This document shows positions 1 through 38,202 of a stretch of DNA of 38,202 nt, piece by piece. The notes beneath the pieces were generated by a model. The model had not been told where the DNA came from, did not search any database, and saw only the letters and a list, made by a program, of their open reading frames with translations. How positions within the stretch are numbered: the stretch's first letter is position 1; every line of letters begins with the position of its first letter. The position numbers and the translations under genes were made by a program. Source of the stretch: a virus; IMG/VR virus record IMGVR_UViG_3300042934_000723, positions 1 to 38,202 of that record, one strand, 5' to 3'.

Positions 1-32
1 GATTTTTTGGGCCGCGCAAAAAACCGGGCGAC
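1..32. repeat. 32-bp direct terminal repeat, left copy
   Basis: Bases 1-32 are identical to 38171-38202. The repeat holds a small dyad (ttttttg at 3-9, caaaaaa at 17-23) and ends exactly at the end of the left arm of the next hairpin (24-53). Either the contig is circular and the assembler left the overlap, or the molecule has a short terminal redundancy. The position between the last early gene and the terminase genes is where a cos or pac site is expected. Confidence 0.9.
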
Positions 33-5601: not shown

Positions 5602-5778
5602 TCACGGTCGGCGGGCGCGCTGGTTGAACAGCTCTTGCAGGGCGTCCAGAAGCGCCTGGTTCATGGCGCGGTCGGCGGATGACCGGTTTGCCTGGCGTCG
5701 GTCGAGGATCCAGGCGGCTGCGGACCAGGCGATGAGGTGAGCGGCGAGGACTACGGCGAGTAGCCATGGGGTGGGCAT
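5602..5778 (-). CDS. Small single-pass membrane protein
   Basis: 58 aa from ATG at 5778, with GGAGCC upstream. Residues 4-23 (PWLLAVVLAAHLIAWSAAAW) form one transmembrane helix. A basic helical tail (LDRRQANRSSADRAMNQALLDALQELFNQ) follows that may be a short coiled coil on the inner face. It starts two bases from the stop of the upstream gene. No family recognised. Confidence 0.6.
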   Translation of the reverse strand: MPTPWLLAVVLAAHLIAWSAAAWILDRRQANRSSADRAMNQALLDALQELFNQRARRP

Positions 5779-5780
5779 CG

Positions 5781-6137
5781 TCAGGGCTCCCTGTGCTGAG
5801 GGTCGAGGCGGGCGACGATGTCGTCGAACTCGCGGCGGGTGTAGTCGGTGCAGCCGACGGCGTGGGCCCGGCCGCAGCTGGACTGGCCGAGCAGGCAGCA
5901 CGGGAACAGCGGGGCAGGCCACTCGCCAAGGGCCCGCTGGCGGGCGACCTCGTGCTCTGCGATCTCCCGGCGGTGCCGGCGGTTGGCCCGCAGGGCGGCC
6001 TCGGTCAGGACCAGGACGCCGGCCCCGAGGAGCGCGGCGTGCGGGTACAGCTCGTGCAGGCCGCAGCCGATACCCGCGGCGGCCAGGAGGACGGCGCCGA
6101 GCGCGGCTGCGTGCTGGTGACGGCGGTGTCGAGTCAC
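5781..6137 (-). CDS. Membrane protein with Cys-rich C-terminal domain
   Basis: 118 aa from GTG at 6137, overlapping the previous stop by four bases (GTGA), with GGAAGAA upstream. After a His/Arg-rich start, two hydrophobic segments (AAALGAVLLAAAGIGCGL and PHAALLGAGVLVLTEAAL) form a hairpin. A soluble part contains FPCCLLGQSSCGRAH and VGCTDY, four Cys and one His that could bind zinc or make disulfides, and a C-terminal helix (REFDDIVARLDP). No family recognised. Confidence 0.6.
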   Translation of the reverse strand: MTRHRRHQHAAALGAVLLAAAGIGCGLHELYPHAALLGAGVLVLTEAALRANRRHRREIAEHEVARQRALGEWPAPLFPCCLLGQSSCGRAHAVGCTDYTRREFDDIVARLDPQHREP

Positions 6138-6822: not shown

Positions 6823-7025
6823 AGGTGAGCCTCGGTGAGGGGGAGTTGCTCGGGCACGGCCGTGACCGGGGCGAGGACGGCGCGGATGCGGGACGGGTTG
6901 CGGCGGATCGCGGCCCGCTGGGCGGGGCTGAGCTTGCGCCAGCAGCGGGATCCGATCCGCCGCGCGCGGGCGGCGGCGGACCGGAGCGGCTTGTGGCACA
7001 GGGCGCACGTGGCGGGGCCGGTCAC
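6819..7025 (-). CDS. Small zinc-binding protein (DUF6011-like)
   Basis: 68 aa from GTG at 7025, overlapping the upstream HNH stop by four bases; its own end overlaps the next GTG. Residues 7-10 are CALC, followed by KPLRSAAARARRIGSRCWRK, with a third Cys in the G-x-x-C setting usual for the short CxxC...GxxC proteins of actinophages. The rest is basic (LSPAQRAAIRRNPSRIRAVL) and could contact nucleic acid. The family name is from memory of the pattern and is tentative. Confidence 0.6.
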   Translation of the reverse strand: MTGPATCALCHKPLRSAAARARRIGSRCWRKLSPAQRAAIRRNPSRIRAVLAPVTAVPEQLPLTEAHL

Positions 7026-7468
7026 GAAGGGGTCCCGAAGATCGCGTCGTACAGGGTGTCGACGCGCTTCTCCCGGGCGCGGTCCGCCCGGTCGGCGTGG
7101 TGGCCCTGCTTCACGCAGTGGTCCCGGCCGCAGGACGGCAGCGCGTTGCCCTCCGGGTCCCGGCCGTTCGCCATGCGGTACGCGAGCCGGTAGGCGGTGT
7201 AGAAGGTGCCGCCGTGGCGGAGGCCCGGCGTGCCGTCCTTCGTGCGGTAGCCGGTCCACTCCATGTGGCCGTCGTCGGTCGGCTTCACCCGCCGCCAGAA
7301 CAGGTCTTCCGGTGTGGCGGCGGGCATCTTCCCCGACCTGGTCTTGGGCAGGCCCAGAGCGGCGCGCGCCGCGGCCACGGTCTTTTCCTCAGCTTTCAGC
7401 TGGCGGGCGATGGCCCGGTTGGAGTGGCCGGCCCGGAGCATCTCGGCAATGTCGGCACGGATCTTCAC
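7022..7468 (-). CDS. HNH/His-Me finger endonuclease with N-terminal HTH
   Basis: 148 aa from GTG at 7468, overlapping the WhiB-Lsr2 stop by four bases. Residues 1-38 form an HTH of the AGHSNRAIARQLKAEEKTV type. From about residue 50 comes a domain seen in many phage HNH proteins: FWRRVKPTDDGHMEWTGY, then TFYTAYRLAYRMANGRDPEG, then LPSCGRDHCVKQGHH, with the Cys/His cluster that binds metal and carries the catalytic His. Such proteins act as homing or packaging-associated nucleases. The HTH may give site specificity. It is embedded in the overlapping early operon, unlike a recently inserted homing gene. Confidence 0.75.
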   Translation of the reverse strand: MKIRADIAEMLRAGHSNRAIARQLKAEEKTVAAARAALGLPKTRSGKMPAATPEDLFWRRVKPTDDGHMEWTGYRTKDGTPGLRHGGTFYTAYRLAYRMANGRDPEGNALPSCGRDHCVKQGHHADRADRAREKRVDTLYDAIFGTPS

Positions 7469-8256
7469 GATGCGCCGCCGCTGGCCTGCGCGGTGGCGGC
7501 CGTCCACTGGTCGACGACCGCCTTGGGCACGCGGCCGGTGGCCGGGCAGTCGACGCCGGTCTCGCGGGCCCAGGCGCGCACGGCGCGCGAGTCGTAGTCG
7601 ACCTTTCGGCGGGGCGCCTTCGCCTTGACGGGGGCGATCTCCTGCTGTCGGCTGCGGAGTTCAGCGAGCCGCTTCTCCAGCTGCTCGGCCTCGGTGGTGA
7701 TGGCGCTCAGCTCCAGGTCGTCGGCGTACCGCTTGCGCAGGCCGGCGAGGATGACGCGGCCACGGGCGGCCTGGTCCTGGACATCGGTGTCCGGGTGCTC
7801 GTCGCCCCATGCCATGAGCTGGCCGACGGGGAGCGCTTCGGCAGTGGCCTGCGCGGTGGGCGTGGACGCGGTGCTCTCGGTGCTCATGGGTTCGGTGGTC
7901 CCTTCTGTCGGCCTGTCCTCGGTGAGGTGAAGGCGGTTGTGGCGGGCGGCTTCCGGGCCGCCCTGGGTGTCGATCTCGTCGAGCAGCTGGCGCAGGGCGG
8001 CGATGGTCACGGGCTTCTCCGTCAGGCCGGCGGCCAGCTCCCGGCGCTCGGCGACGGTGAGCCCGCCCCAGACGCCGAAGCCGGGGTGGTACGTCTCGTG
8101 CGCGAGGGCGTCGTGCAGGCACTCGGCGCGGACCGGGCAGCCCGAGCAGACCTCCATAGCCGCGGTGGTGGCGTGGCCGAAGAACAGGTCGGTGTCGCTG
8201 CCCGCGCATACCGCGTCCGCTCGCCAACCGGTGCGGGGCCGGCGGGCGGTGGTCAT
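7465..8256 (-). CDS. WhiB-like / Lsr2-like fusion regulator
   Basis: 263 aa from ATG at 8256, overlapping the upstream stop (ATGA). Residues 11-75 are WhiB-like: four Cys at 17, 37, 40 and 46 (C...CxxCx5C), which bind a 4Fe-4S cluster in this family, then the GVWGG turn at 61-65. A helical linker (VTIAALRQLLDEID) follows. From residue 124 the frame continues, without a stop, into an Lsr2-like part: GQLMAWGDEHPD, a coiled coil (ITTEAEQLEKRLAELRSRQQ), and a C-terminal AT-hook-like DNA-binding domain (YDSRAVRAWARETGVD...ATGRVPKAVVDQW). An internal ATG at 7887 could also start the Lsr2 part alone. WhiB and Lsr2 proteins are normally separate; here redox-sensing and xenogeneic-silencing modules are joined. 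Confidence 0.85.
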   Translation of the reverse strand: MTTARRPRTGWRADAVCAGSDTDLFFGHATTAAMEVCSGCPVRAECLHDALAHETYHPGFGVWGGLTVAERRELAAGLTEKPVTIAALRQLLDEIDTQGGPEAARHNRLHLTEDRPTEGTTEPMSTESTASTPTAQATAEALPVGQLMAWGDEHPDTDVQDQAARGRVILAGLRKRYADDLELSAITTEAEQLEKRLAELRSRQQEIAPVKAKAPRRKVDYDSRAVRAWARETGVDCPATGRVPKAVVDQWTAATAQASGGAS

Positions 8257-8567
8257 CTGCCCCACTGCCACGCCCCGGGACGCACGACGGGGCGGCGCTG
8301 CGGCCTCGAGGGTTGCCGCGCCTGCGGCCGCGGGCTGCGGCAGGTGGCGGCGTGGGGCATGGCCCGCCACTCGGCACCCTCGAGCGTCGGTCGCTCCGCC
8401 GTGAGGACTCGGGCCCGCAGCGTGCCGGTCCCGTCCGTGTAGATGGCGAGGTTGCCGGCCTCGTCCGGCTTCGCGTTGACGGCCTGACGGCGGCCGTTGA
8501 CGGTGATGGCCCACCGGATGTCGGCGTAGCAGCCGCTACACGGGACGACGTCGTGGTCACTGGGCAT
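8253..8567 (-). CDS. Small Cys-pair hypothetical protein
   Basis: 104 aa from ATG at 8567 with a strong GGAGG seven bases upstream; it overlaps the end of the replication-type gene by 11 bases. Residues 10-13 are CSGC in a VVPCSGCYADIRWAIT context, followed by a beta-rich stretch (GRRQAVNAKPDEAGNLAIY) and, at the end, HAATC. This looks like one zinc-binding unit made from a CxxC and a later HxxxC pair. The tail is rich in Pro, Arg and Gln. Proteins of this kind often precede WhiB genes in Streptomyces elements. Function unknown. Confidence 0.65.
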   Translation of the reverse strand: MPSDHDVVPCSGCYADIRWAITVNGRRQAVNAKPDEAGNLAIYTDGTGTLRARVLTAERPTLEGAEWRAMPHAATCRSPRPQARQPSRPQRRPVVRPGAWQWGR

Positions 8568-10164
8568 GGGTCCTCCGGTCGCTACCGGTCTGGTCGGGGT
8601 CGTGGTGGCCGCGCAGGATCGGGAGTGTCCGCAGCTGGCCGTACAGGTGAAGGGTCAGGACCGGGCCGTGCACGGCGAGCACGGCGCGGATCTCGTCGTC
8701 GCTGGCCTGCTCGCGCTCGCGGTAGGTGAGCTTGCGCGGGAGCGGCCGGGCGCCGGGGGCCTCGAGGTCCTGCGCCTGGTGCAGCCGTTGCTGCCGCTGC
8801 TCCTCGAGGAGCCGGGCCCGCTCGGCGATCTCGGCATCCCGCGCGGCGCGGGCGGCCTCGACCTGCCGGTTGAGGGCGCAGGTCTCGCAGTCGGCGCCGG
8901 TGTCCCAGATGACGCCGCTCTCGCAGCGCACATCGCCGCAGCCGTGGCGTACGAGGGCGGCGCCCAGGAGCCAGCGGCCGACGTCGCGGACCTGGTCGGT
9001 GGTGGCGTAGCGGCGGGTGAGCCGGTCGGTCAGGCGGTCCTGGCTGCCGCCGGGGGCGTCGAGCTGGGCGCCGATCTCGCGGGCGATCCGGCGCAGCATG
9101 TAGGCGCTGAGCGCGGGGAGTTCGTGGTGGACGGGGGCAAGGACGCGCCACACCCTCGGCGACAGCTGCAGGGCAGGGCCGGTGTAGGCGGGCCGGATGG
9201 TGGCCGGGCCCGGGGTGGGAGTCGCGTCATCCGTGCGCAGCACGAGAGCACCGCGGCCGAACGTGTCCGGCACCGGGTTATCCACAGGCGGCGCGACCCA
9301 CTTACGGTCACCTCGCCTACGGCGGATCCCCCCACCCAGCTCCGTCTTCTCACGTCGGTCAGTAGCGAGGTCTTCCTTAGACGCGAGGGATCCGTCAGCA
9401 AGATCCGCACCCGATCCGTCCTGGATGACCGCAGCCGCGCCGTCCCACAGCGGGAGTTGCTCGTCGCCCGGGGCCGGGGCGGCCGGGACGGCGTGCAGGG
9501 GGTGACGGTGCGTCTCGTAGGCGTGCCGGCCGCGCTCGCCCTCGCGGCGGTGTACGGCCAGCCAGCCCGTTGACTCCAGCTCATCGACGAGGCGGCGGGC
9601 CTGGCGCTCGCCGAGGTGCTCGCCGGCACGCCGGCCGGTGTGGTGGCGCAGCATCTCGCCCAGCTCGGCGGCCGTGACCGGGATGCGGCGGGCGGTGCAG
9701 TAGGCCAGGAGCGCGTACAGGCGCAGCAGCCGCGGCGTGAGGGCCTCAGCCGCCCGCACGGGGATGCGCACCCACAGCTCGTCGTCGGTGAGCGGGCGCA
9801 CCGTGCGGTGGGCGGACTGGCCGCGGCCGCCGGGCAGCGTACGGCGGATGGTGGGCACCTCGACCAGGCCGTCGACGTCGTCGGGCTGGGCGAGCTGGCG
9901 CAGGCCCCGCTCGACCGCACTCTTGGACATGCCGAGGTAGCCGGCCATGACGGCGACCTTGGCGGTGCAGCCCTCCGGGCGGAGGGCGAGCGCTGCCACC
10001 TTGACGTAGGCGCTCAGGGCCGCATCGGCGTACTGAGCACCCACGACCAGGCGCAGGGGCACACGGATCGTCGTGCCGCCGCCGTCGCGCGGGCGCGCCC
10101 CGGCAGCCGCAGGGTGCGGCTCGGGGTGCGGTGCAGCCTCGGCTGCGAGCGCGACGGCGGACAT
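8557..10164 (-). CDS. Winged-helix replication initiator-type protein
   Basis: 535 aa from ATG at 10164 (GGAT upstream), the largest early protein. Residues 45-100 form a winged helix (AALSAYVKVAALAL, AVMAGYLGMSKSAVERGLRQL). A second HTH lies around residues 145-205 (LLRLYALLAYCTARR, VTAAELGEMLRHH, ARRLVDELESTGWLAVHRR). After a Pro-rich linker comes a helical part, then a zinc knuckle (HGCGDVRCESG...DCETC) and a charged coiled coil (RDAEIAERARLLEEQRQQ). The architecture resembles phage and plasmid replication initiators or DnaD-like replisome organisers. A DnaA box lies inside the gene at 9278-9286, which supports a replication role. Confidence 0.6.
   Translation of the reverse strand: MSAVALAAEAAPHPEPHPAAAGARPRDGGGTTIRVPLRLVVGAQYADAALSAYVKVAALALRPEGCTAKVAVMAGYLGMSKSAVERGLRQLAQPDDVDGLVEVPTIRRTLPGGRGQSAHRTVRPLTDDELWVRIPVRAAEALTPRLLRLYALLAYCTARRIPVTAAELGEMLRHHTGRRAGEHLGERQARRLVDELESTGWLAVHRREGERGRHAYETHRHPLHAVPAAPAPGDEQLPLWDGAAAVIQDGSGADLADGSLASKEDLATDRREKTELGGGIRRRRGDRKWVAPPVDNPVPDTFGRGALVLRTDDATPTPGPATIRPAYTGPALQLSPRVWRVLAPVHHELPALSAYMLRRIAREIGAQLDAPGGSQDRLTDRLTRRYATTDQVRDVGRWLLGAALVRHGCGDVRCESGVIWDTGADCETCALNRQVEAARAARDAEIAERARLLEEQRQQRLHQAQDLEAPGARPLPRKLTYREREQASDDEIRAVLAVHGPVLTLHLYGQLRTLPILRGHHDPDQTGSDRRTHAQ
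9278..9286 (+). other. DnaA box TTATCCACA, candidate origin element
   Basis: A perfect nine-base DnaA box lies in the middle of the winged-helix gene. The following 150 bases include more A+T than the flanks (cttacggtc, cttccttagac) and a twice-repeated ggatcc. Phage origins often sit inside the initiator gene. Only one perfect box is seen, so this could also be chance. Confidence 0.35.
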
Positions 10165-10183
10165 GACGATCCTTCGGGGTAGG

Positions 10184-14139: not shown

Positions 14140-14175
14140 TTCGATATTTCTACTTTCGAAATCGAAGTCTGTCAA
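14140..14175 (-). promoter_or_regulatory. Early leftward promoter with operator repeats
   Basis: Minus-strand -35 TTGACA (plus 14170-14175), 17-base spacer, -10 TAGAAA (plus 14147-14152). The spacer contains tttcgaaa, an eight-base palindrome (14154-14161), and ttcgat/atcgaa arms at 14140-14145 and 14161-14166. The same atcgaa core recurs at 14221 and near 13813. This is the best -35/-10 match in the window and should drive the XRE, excisionase-like and following early genes. Confidence 0.7.
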
Positions 14176-14307
14176 CAGTCGCGCCGAGCCATGCCGAGTC
14201 CAGCCGGGTTACGTGCGTTAATCGAAAGCGTGTTCTATGGTGGCGGCATATGCCCTGCACAACGGCGCGTAACGGGGAGGTCGCGCGCCGCCAAGTTCGA
14301 GCCAGTG

Positions 14308-14336
14308 CTTCTACTTTTACTTGCGAAAAGTAGAAG
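14308..14336. promoter_or_regulatory. Perfect 11-bp inverted repeat, repressor operator candidate
   Basis: cttctactttt (14308-14318) and aaaagtagaag (14326-14336) are exact inverted repeats around acttgcg. The repeat lies just upstream of the CI-like gene, and the spacer carries its probable -35 (TTGCGA, 14321-14326). Part of the arm (tctact / agtaga) also appears in the leftward promoter (ttctact at 14149-14155), so the same protein may bind both. Confidence 0.65.
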
Positions 14337-14357: not shown

Positions 14358-14729
14358 GTGGAGACTCCCGAGCCCGACGCCCCCACCGGCGAGACCTTCG
14401 CGCAGGCACTCGCTGCGCTCAAGGACGACTACCGCATCAGCGAGAACAAGATCGCTGAGCGCATCGGCGTCCACGTCTCCACCGTGAACAACTGGGCCCA
14501 CGGCAAGGCCAACCCGCGGCCGGCCGCCATCCGCTCTCTGGCGCAGGCCTTCCCCCGCTTCACTGAGGCGCGCCTATTCGCAGCTGTCGGAAAGAGGGCG
14601 CCCGCCCCGCTTCCGCCTGACCGTCGTGACGCTGTGCTCCAGGTCTTCGACCGCCTCACCGAGGAGCAGCAGAACATGCTCCTTATCCAGGCCAGCGCAG
14701 TGGCCGACAGCAACGACCAGTCAGGCTGA
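14358..14729 (+). CDS. CI-like XRE-family repressor
   Basis: 123 aa from GTG at 14358, with no ribosome-binding site (probably leaderless). Residues 14-58 are a classic HTH_3 domain: FAQALAALKDDYRISENKIA, ERIGVHVSTVNNWAHGKANP and RPAAIRSLAQAF. The C-terminal 45 residues (DAVLQVFDRLTEEQQNMLLI) are a helix pair that may dimerise. There is no LexA-type Ser/Lys peptidase domain, so induction would not go through RecA cleavage of this protein. It points rightward into the integrase region, opposite to the early operon, and probably silences the leftward promoter by binding the repeats at 14140-14336. Confidence 0.75.
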   Translation: METPEPDAPTGETFAQALAALKDDYRISENKIAERIGVHVSTVNNWAHGKANPRPAAIRSLAQAFPRFTEARLFAAVGKRAPAPLPPDRRDAVLQVFDRLTEEQQNMLLIQASAVADSNDQSG

Positions 14730-14930: not shown

Positions 14931-15182
14931 ATGTGCATCCGCGTCCAGTACGTACCTCGCCACCTGCTCGAGGACCCGTACGACGCCTCACACCAGGTCG
15001 TCACTCTGCCTGACACCCTGCGAGAGCAGTACGCCCTGCGAGCCCTCCGGACCGTACTTGGCGAACTCGGCATCCCCCAGGCGCGCTTCGGTGCACGCTG
15101 CTGGTGCGGAGAGCAGATAGGCCTGCTCCCGCTCATCCCTCAGCAGCGAAGGAGTAACGAGGTGAGCAACCTTGGCGCGTAG
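14931..15182 (+). CDS. Small protein coupled to integrase
   Basis: 83 aa from ATG at 14931 with GGGGGAG seven bases upstream. Its stop lies 11 bases inside the integrase gene, so the two are co-translated. The protein has a basic, helical middle (DTLREQYALRALRTVLGELG) and a CWCGE motif. No family recognised. Short genes in this position, upstream of tyrosine integrases, are seen in actinobacterial elements; some may help integration or excision. The 200-base gap in front (14730-14930) has no gene I can support. It holds possible promoter pieces (ttgcaa near 14815) but no convincing pair. Confidence 0.65.
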   Translation: MCIRVQYVPRHLLEDPYDASHQVVTLPDTLREQYALRALRTVLGELGIPQARFGARCWCGEQIGLLPLIPQQRRSNEVSNLGA

Positions 15183-16479
15183 GGCTACCAACAACCCACG
15201 ACAGCTCAAGTCCAAGTCATGCGGGTGCGAGCTGTGCATGGACGCCTTCCCGCCGGAACAGCACGGTGAGCGCCGGCGCCGCCGTGACTGCATCGGATCC
15301 TGGCAGGCCCGCTACCGGGACGCTGACGGGCAGCAGAAGGCCAAGAACTACCCGAAGAAGAAGGACGCTGACGCCTTCCTGGACAGGACCCGGGAGGCGG
15401 TCCGCTCCGGTACCTACCTTGACCCCAAGCGCGGCGAGGTCACCCTCTCCGCATGGTGGGCGGAATGGTGGCCGGGCCACGAGCCCGAGCGGCCGACCAC
15501 CCGCAACCGCAAGCTGTCCTCCTGGACTTGCCACATCGAGCCCAAGTGGGGGAAGCGCAAGCTGGTCTCCATCCGTCACACCGAGGTCCAGGCCTGGATG
15601 CGCACGGAGGTGAAGGGCCACGCCACGCAGATCAAGGTCCGCGAGCTGTTCCGCGCGCTGATGCGGGACGCGGTGGTGGACGAACGGATCCCGAAGAACC
15701 CGTTGGACGCCGTCACCATCACCGCCGCGGCCCCGACGAAGCACCCCGACGAACTGCGGCCCCCCACGGAGGAGCAGTACGCCGCGATCCGCGAGGCCAT
15801 CCCCCTCTGGTACCAGCCTCTCGTCGACTTCGCGCACGAGACCGGGATGCGCTGGGGCGAGATCGTCGGCCTGCGCGCCTGCTACCTCGACCTCGAGGAG
15901 TGCGCCGCCGAGGTGCGGCACATCCTGGTGGACGACCGCGGGACCATCGTCCGCCAGCGGATGCCGAAGACCCTGGCCGGCTACCGCACCGTGCCTCTCA
16001 CGGCCGCCGGGGTGGAGGCAGCGAAGCTGGCTCTGGAGCGGCTGCCCGCCTCGAGCACAGTGACTGACGTCCAAGCCGGCCTGTGCCCCGAGGAACTGGT
16101 GTTCCGTGGGCCGATGGCGGGCGAGGCCCGGCTCATGAAGGGCGAGCGGACCACGCTTGACGGCGTGCTGCGCGGCAACAACTTCCGCCGGCGGATCTGG
16201 ATTCCCGCGATCAAGGAAGTGGGATTGGCACGGCTCATCAAGGACCCGGACACGGGGCGCGAGGAGTACTGGCCTCGCTTCCACGACTACCGGCACGCAT
16301 TGGCGAGCCGCCTGCACGCCCGCGGGGTGAGCGAGAAAGACGTCCAGCTCGTGCTTGGACAGGAGCGGGGCGGCCGGGTCACCTGGCTATACACGCACGG
16401 CACCGAGGGTGCGGCCGACCGGGTGCGCCAGGCGCTCGAGGGCGGCGGCGACGCTCGCCACCTGCGAGCCGTCTCGTGA
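15172..16479 (+). CDS. int: Tyrosine site-specific integrase
   Basis: 435 aa from TTG at 15172, chosen for GAGGTGAG just upstream and overlap with the preceding gene. Residues 1-60 are an Arg/Lys/Cys-rich arm-binding part (CGCELC Cys cluster near 18-22; WQARYRDADGQQ). Residues 88-180 form the SAM-like core-binding domain (LSAWWAEWWPGH, VQAWMRTEV). The catalytic domain shows R227 (TGMRWGEIVGLR), K266 (MPKTLAGYRTVPL), H371-x-x-R374 (HDYRHALAS) and the nucleophile Y407 (YTHG). The usual LGH motif reads LGQ, so Gln397 replaces the second His. It catalyses recombination between attP, 160 bases downstream, and a host tRNA-Ala gene. Confidence 0.95.
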   Translation: MARRATNNPRQLKSKSCGCELCMDAFPPEQHGERRRRRDCIGSWQARYRDADGQQKAKNYPKKKDADAFLDRTREAVRSGTYLDPKRGEVTLSAWWAEWWPGHEPERPTTRNRKLSSWTCHIEPKWGKRKLVSIRHTEVQAWMRTEVKGHATQIKVRELFRALMRDAVVDERIPKNPLDAVTITAAAPTKHPDELRPPTEEQYAAIREAIPLWYQPLVDFAHETGMRWGEIVGLRACYLDLEECAAEVRHILVDDRGTIVRQRMPKTLAGYRTVPLTAAGVEAAKLALERLPASSTVTDVQAGLCPEELVFRGPMAGEARLMKGERTTLDGVLRGNNFRRRIWIPAIKEVGLARLIKDPDTGREEYWPRFHDYRHALASRLHARGVSEKDVQLVLGQERGGRVTWLYTHGTEGAADRVRQALEGGGDARHLRAVS

Positions 16480-18491: not shown

Positions 18492-19166
18492 TCACGGGTA
18501 CTGACGGCGCGTGGGGTCGAGGCCGGCGGAGAGAAGACCGCCCCCGCCCCCGTTGCCGGGCTGTGGATCGGGTGCTCCGTCGCGGCGGCACACGAGGGCG
18601 TCCGGATCGTCGGCTGGGGGCTGGAGGCTGTAGCCGTCGGGGCAGGCAGGGCCGGGTGCCCCGGGTTCGCCGCGAGGCCCCTGCTCCCCGCGTTCTCCCT
18701 GTGGGCCTGGCGGCCCGGTCACGGTGTCGCCCGGCGGTCCCTGCGGTCCCACAGGTCCTGGCACGGTGGAGTCGTCGCCGTCCCGGCCGGGCGCTCCGGA
18801 CGCGCCGGGTGACGGGGTGATGGTGGGCGCCGGCCGTCCAGGTTCTCCCTGCGGACCGCGGGGACCCGGGATCGGCACCGGCACCTCGGCGCGGGCAGGC
18901 AGGTCATCGACCGCGTCGGACGGATCCGGCGCGACCGGCGTCTCACCCTCACTCCTCACCTGCGTCCTCAGCTCACGTACGTCTGTGGCCAGCGTCGTCA
19001 CGGCCTGGCCGCGCCGGTCCGCCTCGGCCGCGAGCTGGTCGGCGCGGCTGGTCTCGGCGTCGATACGCCCCCAGACGATGACGACCGCGCCGGACAGGGC
19101 GACCAGCCAGCACAGCAGCGCCAGCGGGCGCCAGCGGCGGGCCAGCGCCCGCTCTGTCCGGGTCAC
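18492..19166 (-). CDS. Collagen-like membrane protein
   Basis: 224 aa from GTG at 19166, overlapping the upstream stop (GTGA), with GGAGGA upstream. Residues 14-33 ([20 protein letters not shown]) are one transmembrane helix. Residues 38-72 form a coiled coil ([20 protein letters not shown]). From 101 to 172 there are three blocks of Gly-X-Y triplets, 101-110, 121-130 and 137-172 ([20 protein letters not shown] and onward), broken by Pro/Thr linkers. The end has two Cys (175, 193) and a Gly-rich run. Collagen-like proteins form trimers and occur in phage tail fibres; here the membrane anchor and the place after the holin genes suggest a cell-envelope role in or near lysis. It is the last late gene. 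Confidence 0.75.
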
Positions 19167-37868: not shown

Positions 37869-38091
37869 CAACCATGTCCCCCTTCCCGGCGACAGGGGCC
37901 AGGGCCCGCAACTCGCGCATGACGGCACGCAGTTCCCGGGCAGCGGTGGCCTTGGCCGCAGGATTCTTCGCCGAGGCGTCGACAGCACGGGCGAGACTGG
38001 CCGCGAGCGCGATCATGCCGGGCGCTATTTCGTCGGCGTGAAGGCTGTCGATTTCGATCTTGATGGCGTTGGCGACGAGCCCCATGATCAC
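37804..38091 (-). CDS. terS: Terminase small subunit
   Basis: 95 aa from GTG at 38091 (ATG at 38085 is an alternative; GGGGGTGA lies in front). The first half (IEIDSLHADEIAPGMIALAA, SLARAVDASAKNPAAKATAA) and RELRAVMRELRALAP match the short helical proteins that precede TerL in actinophages. The C-terminal tail is basic (RAKRRAAARERAAEG). It is the first late gene; upstream lie repeats and a palindrome that may be its binding sites. It recognises the packaging site and feeds it to TerL. Confidence 0.7.
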   Translation of the reverse strand: MIMGLVANAIKIEIDSLHADEIAPGMIALAASLARAVDASAKNPAAKATAARELRAVMRELRALAPVAGKGDMVDDFAEQRAKRRAAARERAAEG

Positions 38092-38099
38092 CCCCGGTG

Positions 38100-38129
38100 G
38101 TGACGCAGTGTCACATCACGCAGAGTGAC
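38100..38129. repeat. Interlocked inverted repeats upstream of terminase
   Basis: gtgac-gcagt-gtcac (38100-38114) is followed by gtcac-atcacgcaga-gtgac (38110-38129), so the gtcac arm is shared. In direct orientation, tgacgcagtg and tcacgcagag are spaced by 16 bases. These lie just upstream of the small terminase gene and are candidates for TerS binding or for a late regulator. Confidence 0.5.
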
Positions 38130-38132
38130 GGC

Positions 38133-38162
38133 CACTAAAAAGTCGAACTGAGTTCGCGTGAA
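38133..38162 (-). promoter_or_regulatory. Candidate late promoter with 13-base palindrome
   Basis: On the minus strand TTCACG, a 17-base spacer and TTTAGT. The spacer contains cgaactgagttcg (38144-38156), an exact inverted repeat around one base, which may be an activator or repressor site. It is the only promoter-like arrangement I see before the late operon that starts at 38091. Confidence 0.4.
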
Positions 38163-38170
38163 ATGATCTT

Positions 38171-38202
38171 GATTTTTTGGGCCGCGCAAAAAACCGGGCG
38201 AC
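38171..38202. repeat. 32-bp direct terminal repeat, right copy
   Basis: Identical to bases 1-32. Joining the two copies places the hairpin at 24-53 about 110 bases upstream of the small terminase gene. Confidence 0.9.

Follow-up and report, generated by a model that had tools for sequence, protein, structure and literature searches.

The phage genome analysed here carries a gene in which a WhiB domain is fused in frame to an Lsr2-type DNA-binding domain. Comparison with related sequences indicates that this gene very probably encodes two nested products, a 263-aa fusion protein and, starting at an internal ATG (position 7887), the 140-aa tail on its own. The window, 38,202 nucleotides long, is a whole IMG/VR virus record and belongs to a temperate Streptomyces phage. 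As for function, we propose, with a probability of roughly 45%, that the gene acts as an early regulator with two products, in which a WhiB7-like head would dock on a sigma factor, the tail would hold AT-rich promoters, and the free tail would compete or co-assemble with the fusion.

The gene is read on the minus strand, from an ATG at 8256 that overlaps the stop of the preceding gene (ATGA) to a stop at 7465 (Table 1). The initial annotation had described this 263-codon frame, naming no strand, together with the cysteines C17, C37, C40 and C46, a GVWGG motif, and an Lsr2-type C-terminal domain with the ATGR-VPK signature, and all of these are found in the protein. The cysteines are spaced C17-x19-C37-x2-C40-x5-C46, in agreement with the WhiB pattern C-x(14-22)-C-x2-C-x5-C, and the GVWGG motif agrees with the WhiB turn G[V/I]W[G/A]G. 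In terms of Pfam families, the predicted match to WhiB (PF02467) is clear, at 66 bits against a cut-off of 23.6 (E 4e-18). The Lsr2 half was expected to match PF11774, which gives no match to the window protein at E<=1, and it is recognised instead by Lsr2_DNA-bd (PF23359), with 37 bits against a cut-off of 26.9 (E 2e-9). GC3 stays between 0.89 and 0.96 along the whole gene, junction included.

Table 1. Features of the fusion gene and its surroundings, in window coordinates.
Feature	Position	Strand	Details
Full gene, WhiB-TIAALR-coiled coil-Lsr2 (coiled coil probable)	7465-8256	-	263 aa
WhiB domain	8035-8226	-	residues 11-74; Cys17/37/40/46, GVWGG 61-65; Pfam, alignment
TIAALR module, short helical	7924-8010	-	residues 83-111; model helices 85-97, 101-105
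Candidate internal start 1, GTG (Val83)	8008-8010	-	GGAG 6 nt upstream
Internal Shine-Dalgarno of start 2, GAAGGGAC	7898-7905	-	position conserved
Internal start 2, ATG (Met124)	7885-7887	-	ATG/GTG in 33/33 loci
Predicted short product (linker, long helix, Lsr2 DNA-binding domain)	7465-7887	-	140 aa
Long helix, probable coiled-coil oligomerisation segment	7636-7788	-	residues 157-207; AlphaFold model
Lsr2 DNA-binding domain	7495-7596	-	residues 221-254, hook TGR (240-242); Pfam, PDB 2kng
Next gene, HTH-HNH-endonuclease-like	7022-7468	-	GTG start overlaps the stop of the fusion gene (GTGA)
Preceding gene	8253-8567	-	104 aa, phrog_5984
HTH repressor-like gene	14358-14729	+	
Phage integrase	15172-16479	+	

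The fusion is recurrent. Relatives were collected from scans of viral and genome contigs, a sample of Streptomyces genomes and a phage collection. WhiB is in frame with the same core in 13 non-identical Streptomyces phage or prophage loci, window included, and in at least 20 further relatives the core has no WhiB in frame with it. One of the fused copies is gp52 of the cultured Streptomyces phage Kromp. Two of the 13 depart from this form: in locus L008 the core is reduced to its first part and the Lsr2 domain is missing, and in L091 the Lsr2 end is frameshifted. A sequencing error or lost stop hidden between the two parts is rejected by the 12 other in-frame fusions, one of them in a cultured phage. 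Nor do all relatives have two separate genes, since fused and WhiB-less forms are mixed. The joining of the two domains, as first annotated, is therefore genuine.

The core is present in 11 of the 394 genomes of the Streptomyces sample. Outside Streptomyces, a class-level sample of 395 genomes yielded no relative beyond the seed genome, and in a genus-level DNA search the short matches outside the known loci were nearly all limited to the WhiB region. The poorly resolved core tree requires about 5 label changes, and well-supported branches impose at least 2 of them. The fused copies are therefore not a single clade, and one common origin of the fusion is rejected on the same count. Between fused pairs dN/dS is below 1, not strongly so (about 0.4-0.9 for the WhiB part).

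WhiB-less proteins start at M/V-TIAALR, which corresponds to Val83 of the window protein. The codon for this residue (GTG 8010) is a second candidate internal start, absent from the initial annotation. Judging from the sequences, TIAALR is a mobile N-terminal helical module. It is seen joined to varied partners, namely HTH-HNH, another protein, HTH-Lsr2 or a bare Lsr2 domain (L009 5001-5642, L008 4983-5927, L051 3734-4405, L038 and L039). In L009 the module is joined to an HTH-HNH protein, and L008 consists of WhiB and TIAALR with another protein replacing the Lsr2 part. In three loci an HTH-HNH module, which in the window is the separate next gene, sits in frame with WhiB on one side and the core on the other, giving long one-frame proteins of about 450-504 aa (L016 3020-4531, L024 3017-4528, L034 3068-4417). 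A separate WhiB-like gene (5636-5797) lies directly 3' of a WhiB-less core gene in L005.

The internal ATG at 7887 (start 2) had been suggested as a source of free Lsr2-like protein, and the comparison of loci indicates that it is almost certainly a real start. The position is ATG in 24 and GTG in 9 loci, which makes 33 of 33, with the residue chosen by eye from the alignment in each locus and the loci partly related, so not fully independent. The start is preceded by a ribosome site (GAAGGAC, GAAGGGAC, GAAAGGAC, GAAGGAGC or similar) that is kept amid a variable linker. In a first set of 28 loci, pairing of the Shine-Dalgarno sequence with the 16S tail averages -8.7 kcal/mol; the corresponding mean at control codons is -3.4 (sd 2.8). 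Apart from this site, few codons of the core are ATG (6 of 3978), and start 2 is the strongest in-frame start candidate in 25 of the 33 loci, where 8.9 are expected.

The decisive evidence comes from codon choice in the few codons of the ribosome site, and this test is the least affected by relatedness or by the choice of residue by eye. Arginine is encoded by AGG in 13 of 15 cases, compared with 16 of 819 in the rest of these genes (P 5e-19), glycine by GGA or GGG in 14 of 15 compared with 65 of 431 (P 1e-10), and glutamate by GAA in 27 of 37 compared with 122 of 526 (P 1e-9). These codons show that selection acts on the nucleotides of the internal start and its ribosome site, and not solely on the protein.

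The Val83 codon (start 1) is ATG or GTG in all 23 loci that have the TIAALR module. In the fused genes start 1 was lost in 7 of 13 and start 2 was kept in 13 of 13. A different downstream protein begins at the same ATG in L008, so start 2 looks like a gene boundary. All these loci, whose linkers have several lengths, keep an open frame that runs from upstream across start 2, which points to a need for the joined product as well. Since start 2 is conserved, codon-selected and kept in every fused copy, both products are very probably made.

The AlphaFold model of the window protein, built with 29 sequences, has low confidence in the WhiB half. The long helix has a mean pLDDT of about 95-98, and the Lsr2 helices at residues 223-233 and 245-260 are also confident. 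The Lsr2 domain agrees with PDB 2kng, the C-domain of Lsr2, with an rmsd of 0.5 over 33 columns (Foldseek E 0.26, probability 1.00). The same entry is matched by sequence, and it is the sole meaningful match in a fold search with the whole model. In the model, helices stand where the beta-sheet dimerisation domain of Lsr2 would be, and the long helix probably replaces that domain as a coiled-coil oligomerisation segment. Silencing by Lsr2 needs its dimerisation/oligomerisation domain.

An AT-hook-like Q/RGR motif is absent from the window protein, which has TGR in its place, so binding to AT-rich DNA may be weak. RGR or QGR is found in 8 of 22 WhiB-less relatives and in none of the 11 fused copies scored (one-sided P about 0.02 by hand, uncorrected for relatedness). 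Next to the WhiB domain there is no RGRP AT-hook of the WhiB7 subclass; the Lsr2 domain lies about 150 residues downstream.

With regard to the WhiB head, W11, F25, F26, V62 and W63 of the window protein align with W3, F17, F18, V59 and W60 of WhiB1, which contact sigma region 4 (PMC7363131, PMC10245118). By this alignment the head is a candidate for docking on sigma region 4, and it may carry a [4Fe-4S] cluster. In 8 of the 13 fused copies R or Y stands at the position of W63, which means that sigma docking may fail for the family as a whole. The window copy, having kept W63, is a better candidate for docking than many of its relatives.

An exact 32-base direct repeat is present at the two ends of the window (1-32 and 38171-38202). 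The repeat shared by the ends makes it probable that the genome is complete or almost complete; the repeat itself probably reflects a circular or complete phage genome, or else an att site or an assembly overlap. A Cro-like gene, divergent from the repressor-like gene, and an excisionase-like HTH gene head a long set of minus-strand genes. The fusion gene belongs to this set and does not adjoin the repressor or the integrase. Kromp has the same local order, with an HTH gene that matches window 8904-10168, one small gene and the WhiB-Lsr2 gene. The gene order in both phages places the fusion in the early operon, not on the repressor side, and from this position it would be expressed early.

The most AT-rich 100 bases, at 14141-14240, have 51% GC, compared with a window mean of 71% (sd 5), and tie for the lowest GC with 38081-38180 at the right end. 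The first of these segments, between the Cro-like and repressor-like genes, would be a natural candidate target of the fusion. A perfect inverted repeat, CTTCTACTTTT-7-AAAAGTAGAAG, is located close by, between the same two genes, at 14308-14336 and is a likely operator. Scanning the immunity region for promoters and terminators found nothing. Near the late genes, the minus strand encodes a collagen-like Gly-X-Y repeat protein (18492-19166; weak Pfam Collagen match).

The intact sigma contacts and the place in a Cro-led early operon favour a WhiB7-like sigma-docking regulator. WhiB7 binds region 4 of SigA through its WhiB domain, and its AT-hook grips AT-rich DNA just upstream of the -35 element (PMC3905903, PMC10245118). 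In the mechanism that we propose, the first product would be the 263-aa protein, with the WhiB head linked through the TIAALR helices and the long helix to the Lsr2-type DNA-binding domain, and the second would be the tail alone. The head would dock on the principal sigma factor, as WhiB7 does, and the tail would hold AT-rich promoter DNA. Host RNA polymerase would then be directed to, or held at, phage or host promoters. The free tail would compete for the same DNA, or mix with the fusion through the long helix, and would thereby set the dose. A more specific version is doubtful: here the selected internal start would provide a WhiB7-like sigma-docking activator together with its own DNA-binding antagonist, and the ratio of starts, perhaps also the state of the cluster, would set a switch between lysis and lysogeny or for host takeover.

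Four other readings were considered. An unlikely one is that both products, long and short, act on incoming phage DNA by displacing or poisoning the Lsr2 of the host. Filament growth could be stopped by a DNA-binding domain that lacks the Lsr2 oligomerisation domain, the gene is located in the early operon, and passages of a survey of phage WhiB and Lsr2 proteins propose that expressing a different silencer disturbs silencing complexes (PMC8612146). However, known dominant-negative forms retain the N-terminal dimerisation domain and not the DNA-binding domain (PMC7074111), and the WhiB head would be left unexplained.

The initial annotation raised the idea of a redox-gated silencer, in which AT-rich DNA would be silenced by the Lsr2 part and redox state or NO would switch this silencing through the WhiB cluster. 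The four cluster cysteines are present, WhiB clusters are NO-sensitive (PMC7363131), and the phage Lsr2-like protein CgpS keeps a prophage silent, as stated in the survey passages (PMC8612146). This idea is nevertheless not well supported and appears quite improbable, considering that the Lsr2 dimerisation domain is absent (Pfam finds PF23359 only), the hook is TGR with RGR or QGR in no fused copy scored, and the gene belongs to the early operon on the Cro side, away from repressor and integrase.

We also give little credence to a dominant-negative WhiB, whose head would mimic a host WhiB, shut down the developmental regulon and block superinfection, while the tail only positions the head. The WhiB of phage TM4 (WhiB-TM4, cited in passages of PMC8612146) is a precedent and the sigma contacts are intact in the window copy, but many relatives have no WhiB head and the tail is the conserved part. 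Finally, it is very unlikely that the internal start is a relic of gene joining and that one fusion protein is made: WhiB-less relatives do share the site, whose origin may therefore have nothing to do with the fused gene, but it persists in every fused and WhiB-less copy, rare AGG codons included, whereas the surrounding linker diverged and start 1 decayed in 7 of the 13 fused copies.

In terms of previous reports, the survey describes a Ku–Lsr2 fusion and no WhiB–Lsr2 link in its passages, and its term counts, supplement aside, likewise give no mention of a WhiB-Lsr2 fusion (PMC8612146). Titles and abstracts from a search of the open literature contain no description of such a fusion, and in the paper on prophage Samy WhiB or Lsr2 occurs in a citation only. 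These proteins are already grouped by PHROGs under phrog_472, “WhiB transcriptional factor”, of which the window protein is a member (E 4.9e-75). The phrog_472 profile has 523 positions and represents the long WhiB-HTH/HNH-TIAALR-Lsr2 form, with L016 aligning to positions 38-520; it is explained by the long proteins of L016, L024 and L034; the window protein differs from that form in having no middle HTH-HNH piece. The label hides both the Lsr2 half and the second product.

Among known proteins, Kromp gp52 (MH744420) shares the WhiB-Lsr2 core fusion, with 43% identity over 91% of the protein, and is likewise preceded by an HTH gene and one small gene; it differs in a degenerate TIAALR module, having lost start 1 and kept start 2. 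Phage and host Lsr2 and CgpS have the same C-terminal Lsr2 DNA-binding domain (2kng fold), whereas the fusion has no PF11774-type dimerisation domain and carries a long helix and a TGR hook. The Ku-Lsr2 of cluster J mycobacteriophages, as described in the survey passages (PMC8612146), also joins a phage Lsr2 DNA-binding domain to a functional domain, although its partner is Ku, which binds DNA ends, and not WhiB.

WhiB7/WblC has the same combination of a WhiB iron-sulfur domain with sigma contacts and a C-terminal element that binds DNA in the minor groove. In contrast, the fusion has an Lsr2 domain on a long helix in place of the RGRP hook, is phage-borne and has a nested second product. According to the authors of the WhiD study, most WhiB proteins have no distinct DNA-binding motif, and WhiB itself depends on WhiA (PMC7363131). 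Most of these proteins would presumably require a partner, WhiA for example; in these phages a fusion has provided one, and the nested start, if true, would let a single message yield both an activator and its competitor.
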